Of a stretch of 64,000 nucleotides of DNA, positions 1 to 48,283 are shown in pieces. Positions within the stretch are counted from its first letter, which is position 1, and each line of letters begins with the position of its first letter. The translations under genes and the position numbers were made by a program. Below the pieces are notes generated by a model. The model was not told the origin of the DNA. It saw only the letters and a list, made by a program, of their open reading frames with translations, and made no database searches. This stretch comes from Anoxybacillus amylolyticus (GTDB lineage Bacteria > Bacillota > Bacilli > Bacillales > Anoxybacillaceae), in contig NZ_CP015438.1 in assembly GCF_001634285.1 (NCBI RefSeq), positions 729,501 to 793,500 on the forward strand. Direction: 5' to 3'.

Positions 1-989
1 GCAAGTGATGCGTAGAGTCCATGAGCTGAAGGAATTTTGTCCTTACTAATATATTGATTAACAAAAGTCATGAATGCAAAGTGCGTGAGACCAAATGTTA
101 AAGCGTGCAACGGTTGAGAAAACACAAAAACCAGTGGATTCTCAAAAAAATAGACACTTGACCAACGGATAATTGATGCAATCCCGGCCAATAGAAACAT
201 AGTCGCTACATCGAACTTAGTGAATACTCGGTTTGAAATGTAAAAGAACCCGATTTCAGCTAAGACAGCCAAAACAAGGATTCCACCAATATAAACACTA
301 TTGATTCCTATGTGTTTAAGATAAATAACTCCGTAATTATAATAGGCAGCATGGGTACCTTGTAAAACCATACTCAGGAGGAGACATATTAAAAATGATT
401 TTGATTTCAGTAATTCAAAGGAACCTCCTGCCCGTTGAGAAAACTTAACTCTTAAGCTTGATGGAGATCGAATTAATGATAGGATTAAAATGAATAGATT
501 ACCGAGTAAAAACAAATAGATAATATTGTTCGCATTTTTTGAGGCTACCCATCCTGTTAACACTGATGAGAGAATAAAACCGAACGATCCCCATAATCTG
601 CATTTTCCATAGTCAATCCCATTTTCTTCTTTTGATAGAATGGAGGCCTTTGTCTCGTTGATAGGTAACAACATGGGATAGATGAGGCTGAAAAAGACCA
701 TTACTAACATAAGCCATGCCAAATTATTAAAAGGCAAAAAACATACTAGGATGATTAGAGATAAAAAAGCGACTATAAGCGAAACGTGTGATAACCAATA
801 CCTTTTGCACAAGGCAGGAAAAATGTACGAAGTTGAAAAAGCTCTTACTAGTAATCCGATGGATATCACGATCCCTGCTTGTTGAGCAGTTAACCCTTTT
901 GTAATCAGCCAAACGGTCCAGTACGGTAAGAAAATCCCCCAGGTGAAGAAAAATACAAAAAAGTTTGTGGATAACCATGTTTGTTTCAT
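1..989 (-). CDS. MFS transporter, LacY/HcaT-like (C-terminus off window)
   Basis: Integral membrane permease of the MFS_1_like (LacY/HcaT/nucleoside-H+ symporter) type. The reading frame is open from ATG at 989 to the left edge, about 329 residues, and begins MKQTWLSTNFFVFFFTWGIF, so the first membrane helix lies at the extreme N-terminus. At least eight further hydrophobic segments follow, separated by short charged loops. The gene starts 11 bp after the stop of the dienelactone-hydrolase-family gene and is the last visible member of the riboswitch-led operon (4207 to <1). The substrate is not readable. The family includes nucleoside and aromatic-acid importers, which would fit a purine-responsive operon, but that is inference. 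The 3' end is missing only because the window ends. Confidence 0.85.
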   Translation of the reverse strand, partial: MKQTWLSTNFFVFFFTWGIFLPYWTVWLITKGLTAQQAGIVISIGLLVRAFSTSYIFPALCKRYWLSHVSLIVAFLSLIILVCFLPFNNLAWLMLVMVFFSLIYPMLLPINETKASILSKEENGIDYGKCRLWGSFGFILSSVLTGWVASKNANNIIYLFLLGNLFILILSLIRSPSSLRVKFSQRAGGSFELLKSKSFLICLLLSMVLQGTHAAYYNYGVIYLKHIGINSVYIGGILVLAVLAEIGFFYISNRVFTKFDVATMFLLAGIASIIRWSSVYFFENPLVFVFSQPLHALTFGLTHFAFMTFVNQYISKDKIPSAHGLYASL

Positions 990-1000
990 AATGCTTCCCC

Positions 1001-1624
1001 TTATGTCAATACATTTTTTTTCGTTTTCTGAATGGTTTCAATAAGTTGTAGGGACAGTTCAAAAGCCTTTCTTTCTGAATCCGGATGATAGTTATTGGAG
1101 AAGGGATTAGCGAACCCGTGCTGTCCTTTAAACAACTCGACTTTTATCCCTGATTTACAGGATAATTGCTCGACGAGCCAGTTAACATTAAATGACTTTT
1201 CGTGCTCAGAAAACAGTAATAGTACGGGTAGTTTTGGGAATAAATTGAGATAGTCTCTAATCCGTGATCCATAGTAACCTATGGCCGCATCTCCTATGCC
1301 ATAATGTTCGCAACATAACCAAGCTACGGTTGCACCGACGCTATACCCCCAGAACACAATGGTTTTGTATCGAGACTTTAAGGAATCTACTAAATTTAAA
1401 ACTTGTTTTTTCGCTTTTCCAAATCCAATTTCATTTTTGAAATATTGGTAAGCATCTGCCTCATCATCATAATGAAAATGATCTCGATTTAATAAATTGG
1501 GGCAGTATACGTCATACCCTTTAGTGGCAATCATTTGAGCTACGTGTTTCATATGATCGTTAATCCCATAGATTTCATGTATTAGGATGACAGCAACATC
1601 AGAATAATTACAGTGTTTTAACAT
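1001..1624 (-). CDS. Dienelactone hydrolase family protein
   Basis: A 207-residue single-domain alpha/beta hydrolase, the usual size for this family. The family signature is present: HEIYG at residues 16-20 (the conserved Glu of DLH proteins), a nucleophile elbow GYSVGA at 93-98, an acidic residue in FSEHE near 140, and His169 in GQHGFANP. The nucleophile is Ser95 where classical dienelactone hydrolases use Cys, so it probably acts as a serine esterase or lactonase on an unknown ester. There is no signal peptide, so it is cytosolic. It lies 70 bp after the P450 gene and 11 bp before the MFS gene on the same strand, which suggests it processes a P450 product or transported compound. Confidence 0.85.
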   Translation of the reverse strand: MLKHCNYSDVAVILIHEIYGINDHMKHVAQMIATKGYDVYCPNLLNRDHFHYDDEADAYQYFKNEIGFGKAKKQVLNLVDSLKSRYKTIVFWGYSVGATVAWLCCEHYGIGDAAIGYYGSRIRDYLNLFPKLPVLLLFSEHEKSFNVNWLVEQLSCKSGIKVELFKGQHGFANPFSNNYHPDSERKAFELSLQLIETIQKTKKNVLT

Positions 1625-1694
1625 GATATGACAAACTCCTTATCCTTATAATTAAAGATAGAGGGGGTGTCGCACCCCCACTCAGTATAGGAAG

Positions 1695-2954
1695 TTAGTA
1701 TTTGATCGGCATTGTAACAATACCATGAAAGGTAGGGTTAGGCGTCCATTCAGGTCTTTCAAGATTATATAAAGGTGTAATGTGAGAAAAACGTTGAATA
1801 ACTTCTTTTAAAATTTCGGCGATTTCTACGCGAGCAAATGCTGCAGCAATGCATGCATGATAACCACCACCAAAACCAATATGCTGTTTACCTGTCCGAT
1901 TGATATCAAATTTTTCTGGATTTTCAAAAACGCGTTCATCACGACCAGCGGAACCGAGGAAGAAATAGACCGAATCTCCTTCACGAATAAGTTGGTTATG
2001 AATAGTAATATCTTGGGCAGCGTGTCTTGTTATGTATTGAATTGGTCCTTCAAGTCGCATAGCCTCATCCAAGACCTTAGGAATTAGAGACAGATCTTTT
2101 TTGAGTTCATCAAATACTTTTGGATGTTTGAACAATAGATGCAACGTATTACTTAACATGAACTGCGGAATTTTATGTCCACCAAAAATTAGATGAATGG
2201 TTTGTGCGATAAGTTCATCGTCACATAATTCTCCTTCCTCACCCGGATTATCTGAGATTAAACGGCTTAACAAATCGTTGCGTTTTTTGATGCGTCTTTC
2301 AGCAATTGCTTCTGAAAGAAACATGTACATTTCTTTCATACTTTTTTTGGTTTGATCGCTGATATCTTTGTCAGGGACGTGGGAAACAACAAAGTTTTGC
2401 ATAAATTGAGCAATGTCATCTGACCAACGGATAAAACGTTCAACCTCTTCACCTGGAATACCAAGCATTTTACAAAGTACCAACGCCGGAATTGGATGAG
2501 CAACTTCAGAAACGAAGTCAAACTCGTTCGAATGTTTTTCAACCACTTGATCTAAAACTGATGTTACAATTTTTTTGATTTCAGGAGTGATAGCCTCAAT
2601 CTCTTCTTTCCAAAAGGCACGGTTCATGTATTTTCTTAAACGTGTATGGATTGGACGGTCGTTATAAATCATCCATGTGGATATAATGTCGATGATCTCC
2701 TTAAAGTGCTTGTCTTCGCCTTCAGGGAGATTTTTCATTTTGTGCCAAATTAGTGGGCTAGTGATAAAGGTGTCTCCCTGCAAATATTTTGTGATGTCAT
2801 CATATCTTGTTATAAACCACGAACGCATTTCTTCATTCCAATAAACTGGAGCATTATCTCTTAATCTCTTGTAATAGTTGTAACGATTATGCAAATAATC
2901 ATCACTGTAAACACTAAATTGTTCTACATTTTGGGATTCGATAATCGTTTCCAT
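1695..2954 (-). CDS. Cytochrome P450, atypical I-helix
   Basis: Soluble bacterial-type P450 monooxygenase of 419 residues, a normal length without a membrane anchor. The ExxR of helix K is in DEAMRLEGP. The heme-ligand loop reads FGGGYHACIAAAF with Cys368 as proximal ligand. Helix I reads LIFGGHKIPQFML: where most P450s have (A/G)Gx(D/E)T, this one has G-G-H-K-I, so both the acidic residue and the threonine used for oxygen activation are absent. The residue two after the heme Cys is Ala instead of Gly. Such changes occur in P450s with unusual chemistry such as coupling, rearrangement or peroxide use. The gene lies 29 bp after the HD-hydrolase stop. No ferredoxin or reductase is encoded in the visible part. 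Confidence 0.9.
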   Translation of the reverse strand: METIIESQNVEQFSVYSDDYLHNRYNYYKRLRDNAPVYWNEEMRSWFITRYDDITKYLQGDTFITSPLIWHKMKNLPEGEDKHFKEIIDIISTWMIYNDRPIHTRLRKYMNRAFWKEEIEAITPEIKKIVTSVLDQVVEKHSNEFDFVSEVAHPIPALVLCKMLGIPGEEVERFIRWSDDIAQFMQNFVVSHVPDKDISDQTKKSMKEMYMFLSEAIAERRIKKRNDLLSRLISDNPGEEGELCDDELIAQTIHLIFGGHKIPQFMLSNTLHLLFKHPKVFDELKKDLSLIPKVLDEAMRLEGPIQYITRHAAQDITIHNQLIREGDSVYFFLGSAGRDERVFENPEKFDINRTGKQHIGFGGGYHACIAAAFARVEIAEILKEVIQRFSHITPLYNLERPEWTPNPTFHGIVTMPIKY

Positions 2955-2983
2955 TATAAAATTCCTCCTTAAAATATAGTTAT

Positions 2984-4207
2984 TTATATAAAGACCTTTA
3001 GGTCTTTTTCCTTTTCTACAAAGTTAATGACTTCTCTTTCGGATAGTTGACAAATTAGGTCACAAGTAATTCTAGCTTTTTCGGTATCGTTTAAATGGTC
3101 TAATATTTCTAGCTGTCTCATGTTAGTGTCTGAACCTCTGTTTTTGTGGTTATCAAAAAATAGAAAATTAAATATTCTTTTAATATAATCATCTATTCTG
3201 ATTTCAAATTTGAGGTTTATATCATTTTTCAGAAAACATATCTTTGTAATTTGGATTAATATTGCTAGTTTCAAGCTGCTATGTAATGGTAATTGTATTT
3301 TGCTGTAGTAAGGCTTTGCTGGATTTATATAAAATTCTAAGGAATCAATAAATTCAATAACAATTTTATTTAATGCATATCTTTCCCTAGATATTTGGCC
3401 AGATAAAAAATCTTCCAAGAAATTATCTTTGATTTCATTGAAAAGACAATTGATTATTCTCTCTAAATTATCAATATTCTTATAATTAGGGTTAGATGTT
3501 ATACCTTCTAATATTAACGAAAGTATAGTATTTGAGTTTAAAATATTAGCAAATTGATTTCTACTAAAGAAACCCACCATGTCTTTTATATCGTAGATGG
3601 CATTAGAGATATCATCTGCGAGTTCAATTATATATTCTTCAATAACAGGTTGATTGTAAGTCTGGAGAATTTTATTTACAAAAATAGATGACTCCTGATA
3701 ATATCCCTTAATTAAATTCGCTTCTTCTTCCCTTTTAAGAGGTATTACATTTTTATGTTTAAGAAGCGCGGCTACAGTTCTTAATGTAACATTATGAGAT
3801 TCTTCAGTTACAATTCTTATTGTTTGAGCATTGGATTCAAATCCCCCAAAGCATTTCATTATATTATCAAGACTTCTTTCGGCACTATGACCAAAAGGAG
3901 GATGTCCTATATCATGCGCAAAGGTTGCCGCATGAATAAGATTTAAATCAATAGTTGGTAAATCATTTTTTAACAAATGATTGTTTACTCTTTCAGTAAT
4001 TATTTCTGCGATTTCGTTGACTTCCAAAGAATGAATCAATCTATTCCGTAAATTATGGTTATGAGGAAATGGAATAAGTTGTGTTTTAGTATGTAAAATA
4101 CGAAAGTATGGTGATCTTAGTATTCGTTGGTAATCGCATCTAAACTCTGAAATCGAAATCTTTTCTTGTTCTGGTGAAAATCTGCTTTTGTCATATTTTT
4201 TATACAT
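2984..4207 (-). CDS. dGTPase-like HD-domain triphosphohydrolase
   Basis: Predicted deoxynucleoside triphosphate triphosphohydrolase, which cleaves dNTP to deoxynucleoside plus tripolyphosphate; 407 residues. Metal-site motifs are all present: His of NRLIHSLEVNEIA, the HD pair in FAHDIGHPPFGHSAE and the distal Asp of ELADDISNAI. The family motif FESNAQT, used in nucleotide binding, follows. I chose ATG 4207 (MYKKYDKSRF) because GGGAGAGG precedes it by three bases. The longer open frame up to 4282 begins inside an inserted MITE and is not credible. It is the first gene of the operon downstream of the guanine-type riboswitch at 4615-4681, so a purine-level signal probably controls it. Substrate preference (dGTP or other dNTP) cannot be read. 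Confidence 0.88.
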   Translation of the reverse strand: MYKKYDKSRFSPEQEKISISEFRCDYQRILRSPYFRILHTKTQLIPFPHNHNLRNRLIHSLEVNEIAEIITERVNNHLLKNDLPTIDLNLIHAATFAHDIGHPPFGHSAERSLDNIMKCFGGFESNAQTIRIVTEESHNVTLRTVAALLKHKNVIPLKREEEANLIKGYYQESSIFVNKILQTYNQPVIEEYIIELADDISNAIYDIKDMVGFFSRNQFANILNSNTILSLILEGITSNPNYKNIDNLERIINCLFNEIKDNFLEDFLSGQISRERYALNKIVIEFIDSLEFYINPAKPYYSKIQLPLHSSLKLAILIQITKICFLKNDINLKFEIRIDDYIKRIFNFLFFDNHKNRGSDTNMRQLEILDHLNDTEKARITCDLICQLSEREVINFVEKEKDLKVFI

Positions 4208-4254
4208 TAACCTCTCCCACTCTACAAAAATAGTTTTCTGAATAAATAGTAAAA

Positions 4255-4506
4255 ACCCAAGAGGATAGGTTTCTATATACATGCAACTGGGGAGTTTAAC
4301 TTATTTTTTCGACTGTCGGAGGCAAGCCAAAGGCTTGCCTGCGTCACGCATTCGCGTGACAGAGAACCGAACAACGAGCCGCCTCCCAGACAAATTCATT
4401 TGTCTGGGAGCGGTGTTGTTCGGTCGCCCGACAGTCGAAAAATGTTAACACTTCAATGTGCATTTATATATTAATGTTTCACGAGTGAAAACCTATCCTC
4501 TTGGGT
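4255..4506 (-). terminator. Riboswitch terminator, split by a MITE in its loop
   Basis: The two 18-nt arms at 4489-4506 and 4255-4272 are perfectly complementary. On the minus strand the second arm is followed by GGGTTTTTAC, so this is an intrinsic terminator that would stop transcription before the HD-hydrolase gene. The top of the first arm continues into TTTCACTCGT (complement of 4481-4490), which can pair with ACGAGTGAAA at the 3' side of the aptamer P1, a plausible antiterminator. The 193-bp MITE at 4276-4468 now occupies the loop. Without it the loop would be about 20 nt. Confidence 0.8.
4276..4468. mobile_element. 193-bp cloverleaf MITE, copy 1
   Basis: Non-coding element, identical by eye to 26669-26861. 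It is bounded by a TA duplication (4274-4275 and 4469-4470). Ends read TATACATGCA and TGCATTTATA. Inside, an outer stem (CGACTGTCGG with CCGACAGTCG) encloses two short hairpins (GGCAAGCC/GGCTTGCC and GTCACGC/GCGTGAC) and one long hairpin (CCGAACAAC/GTTGTTCGG capped by CTCCCAGACAAA/TTTGTCTGGGAG), giving a four-way junction. TA target use and the terminal TATACAT-CAA similarity to the IS630 relic at 22064 point to mobilisation by an IS630-family transposase. Confidence 0.85.
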
Positions 4507-4614
4507 TGATGTCCTCGATACTATATGTACAACTTATAAATAGGTATATGAATCCCGTCCATATCCCTTCATCTTTCTTAATTACTGAATAAAATGGACT
4601 TAGATTCACTTTCA

Positions 4615-4681
4615 CTCGTAGTCCAGCAATTTAAGGTTGCCGGGTAGAGACTCTCAGACCATATTTCTGAGGATATACGAG
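4615..4681 (-). ncRNA. Purine riboswitch aptamer, guanine type (C74)
   Basis: Complete 67-nt aptamer on the minus strand. P1 is CTCGTA pairing with TACGAG. P2 is CTCAGA/TCTGAG with loop AATATGG. J2/3 is AGTCTCTACC. P3 is CCGGCAA/TTGCTGG with loop CCTTAAA. J3/1 is ACT. These match the xpt-type purine aptamer core, including the loop-loop kissing sequences. The specificity base in GGACTACG is C, which pairs with guanine or hypoxanthine; U would indicate adenine. U51 of J2/3 is retained, unlike the first-described 2'-deoxyguanosine variants. Downstream lie the terminator (4255-4506) and the dGTPase-like operon. Confidence 0.92.
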
Positions 4682-4700
4682 CAAGTTTTTATTAAAATAT

Positions 4701-4854
4701 GGTTCATCACCACAAAATGTACTTGACGAACACGTAATGTTGTGAAGCAAGGGATACCGCTTATCGTTTATTTAACTTTCATTTACAATTATGTATAAAC
4801 AAGTATCAAGTCCGCTTTTATTAAAAAATCAAGCACAACTTTTGGTGAAGAGCC
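4701..4854. mobile_element. 154-bp ISL3-derived miniature element
   Basis: Non-coding. Its termini GGTTCATCACC... and ...TTTGGTGAAGAGCC closely match the inverted repeats of the complete ISL3 element at 7392-8726. It is flanked by a perfect 8-bp duplication TAAAATAT (4693-4700 and 4855-4862), the size ISL3-family transposition makes. It sits between the promoter (4878-4906) and the purine aptamer, so it is transcribed as part of the riboswitch leader. The nearby full-length ISL3 is a plausible source of transposase. Confidence 0.85.
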
Positions 4855-4877
4855 TAAAATATTCATTTTTATCAATA

Positions 4878-4906
4878 ATTATATAGATTGTAAAAATTTA
4901 TGTCAA
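4878..4906 (-). promoter_or_regulatory. Consensus sigma-A promoter of the riboswitch operon
   Basis: On the minus strand TTGACA (4901-4906) and TATAAT (4878-4883) are separated by exactly 17 bp. This is a perfect vegetative promoter, as expected for a transcript whose output is set by a riboswitch. Transcription would start near 4870 and cross the ISL3 miniature element, aptamer and terminator before the first gene, a leader of roughly 660 nt. Confidence 0.85.
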
Positions 4907-25718: not shown

Positions 25719-26916
25719 GTAAGCGTCAAATTCTCCCCACCTAGTTTTGCCCCTATATCCGTGCCCATTAGCTTTGCATAAAAAAAAATTTTCGCTTTGT
25801 CAAGTAGCTGAAGACAAAAAAGGATAATTGAAGATCTCCTCCAACGCTTAGAAATGCTGGAAAAGCAAAATGCAGAATGACAGGCGGAACTAAAAAAGCA
25901 ACAGGAGTTGGAAGCCAAATTAAAATGGTATGAAGAACAACTTCGCCTTCTGCAACATAAACGCTTTGGCGTTTCGAGCGAAAAAACCCTTCCTGGTCAA
26001 TTGGAACTATTCAACGAAGTAGAAAACGAATCCAACCTTGAGTTGCCGGAACCTACGTTGGAGTCCATTCGTTATCAGCGCCGTCGGAAAACACGCGGTC
26101 AACGCGAAGCGATGCTGGAAAACCTTCCTGTCGAAACGGTCGAATACCGTTTATCCGATGAAGAGCAGGTCTGTTCGTGTTGCGGTGGAACGTAAATTAA
26201 AAAAATTAGATCTTAACGATCGGTAGGAAGAACGTCTAAAGCAAAGCAAACCCATCATAGACGCTTTTTTGTCATGGCTTCAAAAGCAAAAACAGCACGT
26301 GTTGCCAAAGAGCGCATTAGGAAAAGCCATTGCGTATTGTCTGAACCAATGGGATAAATTAGTGGCCTTTTTAGAGGATGGGCGACTGGAGATCGATAAT
26401 AATCGCAGCGAACGCTCGATCAAATCGGTGGGCCTCGGAAGGAAAAATTGGCTTTTCGCTAATACACCACAAGGTGCACGGGCAAGTGCCATCATCTACA
26501 GCATAGTGGAGACAGCGAAAGCGAATCATTTACATCCATATTACTACCTTCGCTATCTTTTTGAGAAGCTTCCCAATATGGATTTGTCAGACAAGAACGC
26601 ATTGGATCAAATGCTTCCTTGGTCAACCACACTCCCTGTTTCATGTATTGCTTTTCAGCAGCTAACTATATACATGCAACTGGGGAGTTTAACTTATTTT
26701 TTCGACTGTCGGAGGCAAGCCAAAGGCTTGCCTGCGTCACGCATTCGCGTGACAGAGAACCGAACAACGAGCCGCCTCCCAGACAAATTCATTTGTCTGG
26801 GAGCGGTGTTGTTCGGTCGCCCGACAGTCGAAAAATGTTAACACTTCAATGTGCATTTATATAAATAATACCCCAAGCCCCGGCCTTCAAAAAGGTGGGG
26901 GCTATTTGACGTTTAC
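25719..26916 (+). mobile_element. Internally deleted IS66 relic 2, carrying MITE copy 2
   Basis: Begins with the IS66 repeat GTAAGCGTCAAATTCTCCCC and ends with ...TTTGACGTTTAC at 26916. tnpA and tnpB are absent. tnpC N-terminal codons (25830-26190) are fused to C-terminal codons (26190-26667) at the 13-bp sequence TTGCGGTGGAACG, which occurs twice in intact tnpC. The 193-bp MITE is inserted just after tnpC. The flanking 8-mers differ (TTTTAGAC and GATTATCC), so the flanks are not the original target copies. Confidence 0.85.
26669..26861. mobile_element. 193-bp cloverleaf MITE, copy 2
   Basis: Identical by eye to 4276-4468. Intact IS66 sequence reads GCTAACTAAATAATACC; here the element splits it with duplicated TA (26667-26668 and 26862-26863). 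This comparison with an empty site fixes the element ends and shows precise TA-targeted transposition. Confidence 0.9.
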
Positions 26917-32710: not shown

Positions 32711-34598
32711 GTGCGTCCGGCATGGGTGTAGTCTATAGGGTGAAAGTCCCGAACTGCGAAGGCAGAAGTAGCAGTTAGCTTAACGCAAGGGTGTCCGTGG
32801 TGACGCGGAATCTGAAGGAAGCGAGCGGCAAACTTCCGGTCTGAGGAACACGAACTTCATAAGAGGCTAGGTATCATTGGGTGAGTTTGCGCGACAAAAC
32901 AAAGCCCTTTCTGCCGAAGGTGATATCGAGTAAATGAAGCAGATGGATGGAAGGAAAGACTGCACTCTTACCCGGGGAGGTCTGATTGGAATGCCGAGTT
33001 CCCTTGGCAACCTATCCAGTGATGGATAGCTGAACAATCAGAAGTCAGCAGAGGTCATAGTACCATCCTTGCTCGAGAAAGGGTGGGAAGGACTGAACCA
33101 TGAAGAGAGAACGAAATCTACGCATTCAGTACCTGTGAAGAACACAGACAATCCGAAAGGACTTACTTAGAGGAGGAAGCGGTGAATCCCGTGGGGGACT
33201 CTAAGAGGGTGGAGCAGGAACTGGCATAAGGAGAACCTTCGTTCACGTAGAAAGGGAAGCGAAGATGTTAATGGAACGAATCTTGTCACGTGGAAATCTT
33301 CTAACGGCGCTCAAACGAGTGGAACAAAATAAAGGAAGTCACGGCATCGATGGAATGTCCGTAAAAGACCTACGAAGACATCTCTATGAAAACTGGGACT
33401 CCCTCCGGGAAGAGTTAAGAACAGGAACCTACCAACCTGCACCCGTACGTCGTGTCGAAATCCCGAAACCAAATGGCGGAGTGAGGATGTTAGGAATACC
33501 TACCGTGACAGATCGTTTCATTCAACAAGCAATCGCTCAAGTGTTAACCCCAATCTTTGACCCAACCTTTTCGGAAAATAGTTATGGGTTTCGTCCGAAT
33601 CGGAGGGCTCATGATGCGGTAAGGAAGGCGAAAGAATATATCAAAGAGGGTTACCGCTGGGTGGTCGATATAGACTTAGAGAAATTCTTTGATAAAGTCA
33701 ATCACGACCAATTGATGGGGATACTCGCCAAGCGAATCGAAGACCGCATCCTACTGAAGTTGATACGAAAATATCTTCAATCAGGAGTCATGATAAATGG
33801 GGTTGTCCAAATAACGGAAGAAGGAACACCGCAGGGAGGACCGCTTAGTCCACTTCTATCCAACATTCTCCTAGACCAATTGGACAAAGAGTTGGAAGCA
33901 AGGGGGCACCAATTTGTCCGATATGCGGATGACTGCAACATCTATGTGAAGTCATGGAAAGCAGGACAGCGTGTGATGAAATCGGTATCGACCTTCCTCG
34001 AACAGCACCTAAAATTGAAGGTAAACAGAGAGAAATCAGCAGTAGACCGTCCGTGGAAACGGAAGTTTCTAGGGTTCAGTTTCACCTTTCACAAAGATCC
34101 AAAGGTGCGAATAGCCAAAGAAAGCATGGAACGGCTGAAAAGAAAAATACGAGAAATAACTTCTCGGTCGAAGCCTTATCCGATGGAAGTAAGGGTGGAA
34201 AGACTGAACCAATACCTCACAGGATGGTGCGGATACTTCGCGCTAGCAGATACCCCGAGCAAATTCAAAGAAATAGACGAGTGGATAAGAAGAAGGCTGA
34301 GAATGTGTGAATGGAAACAATGGAAGAAACCTAAAACAAGAGTTAGAAAGCTGATTGGATTAGGGATTCCAGAATACAAAGCATACGAATGGGGAAACAC
34401 CAGAAAGAAATACTGGCGAATCGCCCACAGCCCAATTCTACACAAAACCCTCGACAACTCCTATTGGAGCCAACGAGGGCTGAAAAGTCTGTATAATCGC
34501 TACGAATTTCTGCGTCAATCTTAGTGGAACCGCCGTATACCGAACGGTACGTACGGTGGTGTGAGAGGTCGGGGGTTAATCACCCCCTCCTACTCGAT
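32711..34598 (+). mobile_element. Group IIC intron, complete
   Basis: The 5' end is GTGCG at 32711. A ~550-nt structured ribozyme part precedes the RT gene. Domain V at 34529-34560 (ACCGCCGTATACC / GGTACGTACGGTGGT) has the CGC catalytic triad of class C rather than AGC. Domain VI with GGGGG/CCCCC follows to about 34598 (CTACTCGAT). Insertion after an intrinsic terminator agrees with class C behaviour. All parts seem intact, so it may be mobile. Confidence 0.88.
33265..34524 (+). CDS. ltrA: Group II intron reverse transcriptase/maturase
   Basis: 419 residues, similar throughout to thermostable group IIC RTs such as that of G. stearothermophilus. RT motifs are VRRVEIPKPNGG, GIPTVTDRFIQQAIAQ, YGFRPNRRAHDAV, DIDLEKFFDKVNHD, EEGTPQGGPLSPLLSNILLD and the catalytic YADD in FVRYADDCNIYVKS. 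The maturase X/thumb domain follows (NQYLTGWCGYFALADTPS). It lacks a C-terminal HNH endonuclease, as expected for class C. It lies in ribozyme domain IV. The start ATG 33265 has AAGGGAAGCGAAG before it. Confidence 0.95.
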   Translation: MLMERILSRGNLLTALKRVEQNKGSHGIDGMSVKDLRRHLYENWDSLREELRTGTYQPAPVRRVEIPKPNGGVRMLGIPTVTDRFIQQAIAQVLTPIFDPTFSENSYGFRPNRRAHDAVRKAKEYIKEGYRWVVDIDLEKFFDKVNHDQLMGILAKRIEDRILLKLIRKYLQSGVMINGVVQITEEGTPQGGPLSPLLSNILLDQLDKELEARGHQFVRYADDCNIYVKSWKAGQRVMKSVSTFLEQHLKLKVNREKSAVDRPWKRKFLGFSFTFHKDPKVRIAKESMERLKRKIREITSRSKPYPMEVRVERLNQYLTGWCGYFALADTPSKFKEIDEWIRRRLRMCEWKQWKKPKTRVRKLIGLGIPEYKAYEWGNTRKKYWRIAHSPILHKTLDNSYWSQRGLKSLYNRYEFLRQS

Positions 34599-46103: not shown

Positions 46104-46164
46104 AAAGCGTTTACAACTTTGAATAAATATGCTAGAATTTTAGAAAAAATAAATTCATGTTTGA

Positions 46165-48283
<2,119 letters not shown>

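Follow-up and report, generated by a model that had tools for sequence, protein, structure and literature searches.

The closest described relatives of the element analysed here are the guanine-I riboswitch operons, such as those of purE, guaA, xpt-pbuX and a permease, and guanine riboswitches commonly turn such genes down when guanine is abundant (PMC9295807). In these riboswitches the ligand is contacted by U22, U51 and C74 (PMC9295807). The xanthine-II and guanosine variants of the class have the same three-way junction and also show atypical gene associations, but they change U51 or gain junction insertions (PMC9295807). In a stretch of 64,000 nucleotides of Anoxybacillus amylolyticus (GCF_001634285.1, NZ_CP015438.1, positions 729,501-793,500, forward strand), which is the window to whose first letter the window coordinates refer, a predicted purine riboswitch precedes a cassette of four genes that encode a dGTPase-like HD hydrolase, a cytochrome P450 (P450), a DLH-family alpha/beta hydrolase and a major facilitator superfamily (MFS) transporter.

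This locus shares with the guanine-I operons the aptamer class, the contact bases and the terminator/antiterminator OFF logic, and differs from them in that it governs a P450-hydrolase-transporter cassette and not known genes of purine synthesis, salvage or uptake. The cassette is a conserved accessory operon of Bacillales with predicted repression by guanine. With a probability of roughly four in ten, it serves to take up a purine-bearing compound and to process it by oxidation, guanine being the feedback signal. The riboswitch class is known and the regulated cassette is new to the searchable literature, since a search for a purine or guanine riboswitch with a P450, a dGTPase or a biosynthetic cluster found no relevant paper in the open-licence literature, which is not proof of absence. 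The main text of the 2022 paper on guanine riboswitch variants makes no mention of P450 (PMC9295807). An earlier reading of the window from its letters (the sequence-only reading) had likewise known of no described riboswitch-P450 operon.

Leader and expression platform

The aptamer of the window scores 91.5 bits with RF00167, whose gathering threshold is 37 bits, and has the C74 that the sequence-only reading had reported, and the promoter that it had called perfect is an exact consensus. The aptamers of the 16 other loci found score between 70 and 92.5 bits. The motifs GT(C/T)TCTACC and GACTACG, which correspond to U51 and C74, are kept in all 14 leaders that were fully read, and the leaders carry U22, U51 and C74 with no insertion in the junction, unlike the xanthine-II and guanosine variants. 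An altered ligand specificity, for xanthine or 2'-deoxyguanosine, was also considered and finds no support in the bases of the pocket.

A terminator closes the leaders that were read, shortly 5' of the first gene, and in every leader type the 3' strand of P1 can pair with the top of the terminator 5' arm. In the window this duplex has a predicted energy of -19.7 kcal/mol (0 of 300 shuffles as good). The antiterminator duplexes lie between -14 and -20 kcal/mol, and for each of the eight leaders tested no more than 2 of 300 shuffles are as good. The paired segments are compensatory among leader types, with GAGTGAAA and TTTCACTC in the window type, GAGATAA and TTATCTC in Rossellomorea, and GAGAAG and CTTCTC in a genus that lacks the HD gene. 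The two most divergent types, those of the window and of the HD-less genus, prefer their own pairing partner, while for the remaining leaders, which are too alike, the comparison of own and other partners carries little meaning. The antiterminator is the fold obtained when the leader ends at the terminator loop, and the computed terminator and antiterminator are mutually exclusive. The predicted expression platform is a conserved, classical guanine OFF arrangement, and guanine control of the operon is well supported computationally. The genome of A. amylolyticus has four other purine aptamers, which precede purE, guaA and the genes of a PbuG-like permease and an adenine deaminase, as named from translations and not by family search.

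The terminator had been described with arms of 18 bp. These arms exist, are about 20 bp long and are intact (4508-4487 and 4273-4251, minus strand), and the minimum-energy fold joins them around a 195-bp repeat, which stands in the loop and had gone unreported. This copy of the repeat could alter regulation. At other loci (L032, L035 and L047-L052) an operator-like palindrome centred on CCTGCAGG (ATAATCCTGCAGGTTATTAT) is located just 3' of the likely -10 element and upstream of the aptamer; a variant is found in Rossellomorea, and the palindrome is absent from the window type.

Distribution and synteny

The P450 is found in 11 of 397 sampled Bacillales genomes (E 2e-191 or better), and all 11 have the aptamer upstream. 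A scan for the P450 with one genome per species gave A. mongoliensis, a Rossellomorea, a Bacillus sp., a Peribacillus and a fragment in A. tepidamans, with a purine aptamer at every locus that is not cut by a contig end. Family and genus searches added three further loci, which brings the aptamer-bearing loci to 17, from about seven genera of Bacillales. The order of aptamer, terminator, HD gene, P450, DLH and MFS is fixed, except in one genus, whose three carriers (G408, G800 and G804) lack the HD gene and have the P450 as the first gene after the aptamer. The flanks of the cassette vary among the genera examined. A class-wide sample of 399 genomes held no additional carrier, and searches of plasmids and phages gave only distant matches, with identities of at most about 32% for the P450 and below 40% for the dGTPase.

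The association of the predicted aptamer with the cassette is far beyond chance. The link between riboswitch and operon that the sequence-only reading had drawn is strongly supported by the same genes behind the aptamer in 17 loci. That reading had also named the case that would overturn it, a riboswitch that normally drives an unrelated gene lost here, and this case failed when tested by the synteny of the 17 loci. Transposons could instead have carried the riboswitch of another gene beside the operon, as the transposon-rich neighbourhood and the two repeats within the leader might suggest; this is rejected because synteny is conserved, with the same arrangement in all 17 loci and about seven genera, and its probability is close to nil.

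Cytochrome P450

The protein has the characteristics of a P450, with a match to PF00067 (117.7 bits) and invariant E-x-M-R and FGGGYHxC heme cysteine motifs. The members form a clade, being at least 68% identical to each other and at most about 35% identical to outside P450s, and 239 of 422 alignment columns are invariant. The closest solved P450s by sequence are CYP109E1 of the CYP109 family (PDB 5l90) and PksS, which share at most about one third of their residues with it. The I-helix of 5l90 is of the AGNETT type, whereas GGHKIP stands at that place in all 12 members, and therefore both the acid and the alcohol of the I-helix are missing in all of them, which bears out the earlier description of the P450 as atypical. 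P450 peroxygenases are known to be without the acid-alcohol pair (PMC10988616), by which the chemistry of the cassette P450 is not established. The cassette contains no redox partner gene. Predicted structures were not used, as the mean predicted local distance difference test score was 34 for the P450 (four-sequence alignment) and 38 for a fifth protein described below (single sequence).

Ratios of nonsynonymous to synonymous change (dN/dS), from simple Nei-Gojobori counts between relatives at a synonymous divergence of about 0.1-0.6, are 0.02-0.10 for the P450, 0.21-0.28 for HD, 0.25-0.35 for DLH and 0.10-0.15 for MFS. By these counts purifying selection on the P450 is very strong. For the pair of the window and A. 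mongoliensis, the ratios are about 0.6-1, from few changes and too little data to interpret, and would fit relaxed selection after a recent transfer.

The best NCBIfam model of the P450 is TIGR04538, of cyclodipeptide-associated P450s, which include the setting of the guanine-coupling P450s. The scores are 198.6 and 180.9 bits against a cut-off of 500 and give no support to a specific likeness to the actinomycete guanine-coupling P450s. No cyclodipeptide synthase is found nearby. The same match is one reason to consider a purine natural product or signal that is made and exported, for which the HD enzyme would free deoxyguanosine from dGTP and the P450 would modify or couple it. Actinomycete P450s that couple guanine with cyclodipeptides are known from the literature, and the missing acid-alcohol pair is shared with some P450s of unusual chemistry. 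However, the model score is far from its cut-off, the cassette encodes neither a synthase nor a ligase nor a transferase, the HD enzyme can be missing, and it would be odd to stop production while guanine, from which the product would presumably be made, is abundant. Such a biosynthetic role is less likely than uptake and processing, yet a serious alternative.

dGTPase-like HD protein

The HD protein scores 181.2 bits in the window and 160.6 bits in L031 with TIGR01353, above the cut-off of 152.35, and its H...HD...D metal site (H, AHDIGH and AD) is invariant in 13 sequences. It thus shares the core HD motifs with the bacterial dGTP triphosphohydrolases, and differs from them as a separate, cassette-only subfamily whose function is predicted. 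Of 394 Bacillales genomes, 10 have a member of this subfamily (E 1e-35 or better), each of them a carrier of the cassette. The HD enzyme is cassette-specific yet not indispensable, because one genus is without its gene.

Depletion of dGTP by the HD enzyme could in principle form an anti-phage system, with the other genes as passengers, and a PADLOC dGTPase model does match with 208.7 bits. The curated anti-phage dGTPase model (NF041026) gives only 161.9 and 154.2 bits against a cut-off of 400, the constant and most constrained part of the cassette is the P450 and not the HD gene, and control by guanine makes little sense for defence. A defence role was set aside as very improbable.

Hydrolase, transporter and fifth protein

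The best Pfam match of the transporter is MFS_1_like (PF12832) and the second is Nuc_H_symport. It belongs to a symporter-rich group and is close to the models of the 3-phenylpropionate transporter HcaT and of nucleoside symporters. It falls just under the cut-off of the 3-phenylpropionate transporter model NF008346, with 230.9 bits for the partial protein of the window and 240 bits for L047 against 259. The family suggests import rather than the export that the sequence-only reading had named among the possible roles of the operon.

A small open reading frame of about 141 residues follows the MFS gene in 12 loci and in the contig-cut locus of G785, whereas the cassettes of the window, A. mongoliensis and Rossellomorea types are without it. 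The protein has no Pfam or NCBIfam match. Some of its distant relatives outside the cassette adjoin RHS-like toxin ends and small immunity-like proteins, as judged by eye from translations.

The cassette could also serve detoxification, and HD dNTPases of such a kind could act on nucleotide analogues. A purine antimetabolite or an inhibitor of guanine nucleotide synthesis would lower guanine and open the switch, after which the P450 and the hydrolase would inactivate the compound, the HD enzyme would destroy toxic (deoxy)nucleoside triphosphate analogues and the transporter would export. Accessory resistance would fit both the patchy occurrence, in 11 of 397 genomes, and the recent movement from genus to genus, seen in the 98-99% identity, and an OFF guanine switch would sense guanine starvation. 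Against this, the nearest families of the transporter are importers and the constraint on the P450 is unusually strong for a broad detoxifier. Detoxification is less likely than uptake and processing, yet a serious alternative.

Proposed mechanism

For the uptake and processing of a purine-bearing compound, the following mechanism is proposed. When guanine is bound, P1 would close and hold its 3' strand, the terminator would form and the operon would be off. When guanine is absent, the P1 3' strand would be free to pair with the 5' arm of the terminator and transcription would continue into the operon. The core output is a specialised P450, a DLH-family serine hydrolase and an MFS transporter, usually led by the HD enzyme and often ended by the orphan fifth protein. 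The transporter would bring in a compound that bears or resembles a purine, and the P450 and the hydrolase would cleave or modify this compound. In the carriers that have it, the HD enzyme would remove phosphate from a related deoxynucleotide or from an analogue. Guanine would then shut the pathway, either as its product or as a signal that enough is present, in the manner of the switches ahead of purE, guaA, the permease and the adenine deaminase of this genome. Guanine switches shut purine-supply genes, and therefore the cassette would obtain or process such a compound when guanine is short. Guanine is the probable ligand in the cell.

Several points weigh against this proposal. Ligand, substrate and direction of transport are predictions, the nearest named P450 families do not point to purines, and the HD enzyme is missing in one genus. 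The relatives of the fifth protein near toxin loci are a poor fit to simple salvage, and the window copy may be misregulated because the 195-bp repeat splits its terminator.

A narrower proposal, held more tentatively, is a new guanine-feedback pathway in which an unusual P450 that lacks the usual pair for proton delivery would have a purine, or a compound linked to one, as its direct substrate. If true, it would add new P450 chemistry and a new riboswitch-controlled branch of purine metabolism. A riboswitch reveals the subject of its pathway, and a guanine switch fixed before the cassette in about seven genera is strong evidence that these bacteria have a purine-linked branch of metabolism, of which no description was found in the literature searched. 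The cassette also supplies a short list of assayable enzymes, and its P450s make up a well-delimited, highly conserved family whose active-site helix is unusual. Because it recurs, the cassette offers a natural series for the coevolution of terminator and antiterminator, and it shows transposable repeats entering a riboswitch leader.

Features of the locus

The promoter, aptamer, intrinsic terminator and four genes all lie on the minus strand (Table 1). As the sequence-only reading had stated, the genes are tightly spaced, with short gaps, and all four are intact, the completeness of the MFS gene being judged from the genome. The longest open reading frame of the HD gene has 432 codons and would begin within the terminator; the start is likely at 4207, with GGGAGAGG immediately upstream. 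A strong hairpin in the P450-DLH gap (1625-1694) has counterparts of unrelated sequence in nearly all loci, and suggests partial termination or an mRNA end that would raise P450 abundance over that of the downstream genes.

Table 1. Positions of the features described (window coordinates, or those of the locus named)
Feature	Position	Strand	Basis or remark
Promoter TTGACA-17 nt-TATAAT	4878-4906	-	Exact consensus; same promoter precedes the aptamer in A. mongoliensis
ISL3-like miniature repeat in promoter-aptamer gap	4701-4854	-	No counterpart in A. mongoliensis leader
Guanine-I type purine aptamer	4599-4700 (Rfam bounds), core ~4615-4682	-	RF00167, 91.5 bits, E 1.7e-15
P1 3' strand, common to aptamer and antiterminator	4609-4622	-	Pairs with terminator 5' arm
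Terminator 5' arm and overlapping antiterminator partner TTTTCACTCGT	4476-4508	-	Leader comparison and folding
195-bp palindromic repeat at a TA in terminator loop	4274-4468	-	No counterpart in A. mongoliensis
Terminator 3' arm and T run	4251-4273	-	Leader comparison and folding
dGTPase-like HD hydrolase, 407 aa	2984-4207	-	PF01966; TIGR01353, 181.2 bits
Cytochrome P450, 419 aa, I-helix GGHKIP	1695-2954	-	PF00067, 117.7 bits
DLH-family alpha/beta hydrolase, 207 aa, serine nucleophile motif GYSVG	1001-1624	-	PF01738, 81.9 bits
MFS transporter, 5' part in window; 386 aa in full in genome	1-989	-	PF12832, 155.6 bits
Orphan protein, ~141 aa	L032 13247-13669		Equivalents in L035, L047-L053, L068-L071; distant relatives in L093-L102
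Decaying Anoxybacillus copies	L030 1564-2751; L036 5290-6685; L033 1-85		IS630-type insertion; P450 stop codon; contig-end fragment

Repeats, transposons and decay

The leader of the window has two repeats more than that of A. mongoliensis, of 154 bp and 195 bp. The 154-bp repeat, which we take to be of the ISL3 type from the shape of its terminal repeats and its 8-bp duplication, is flanked by the target duplication ATATTTTA and has five identical copies in the genome. The palindromic 195-bp repeat has about 20 near-full copies in the genome, and a second copy stands in the window near 26673-26863.

A. mongoliensis is of a different genus from the window genome, and the two share 98-99% identity in the four proteins; the cassette has therefore moved recently. 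An IS630-type element in A. mongoliensis has cut the HD gene at its 3' end and the P450 gene in its first codons. In G024 this HD-P450 joint is likewise interrupted, and a stop codon stands within the P450. The Anoxybacillus cassette has spread recently and is partly decayed.

Upstream of the operon, the window is dense in transposase genes between 5059 and 10463, with two broken IS630-like genes, one ISL3-like transposase and one IS66-like transposase, as named by eye from translations. Group II intron domains (RF02001 and RF01998) and a thiamine pyrophosphate riboswitch (RF00059) are found on the plus strand of the window at 32794-33093 and 46161-46275.

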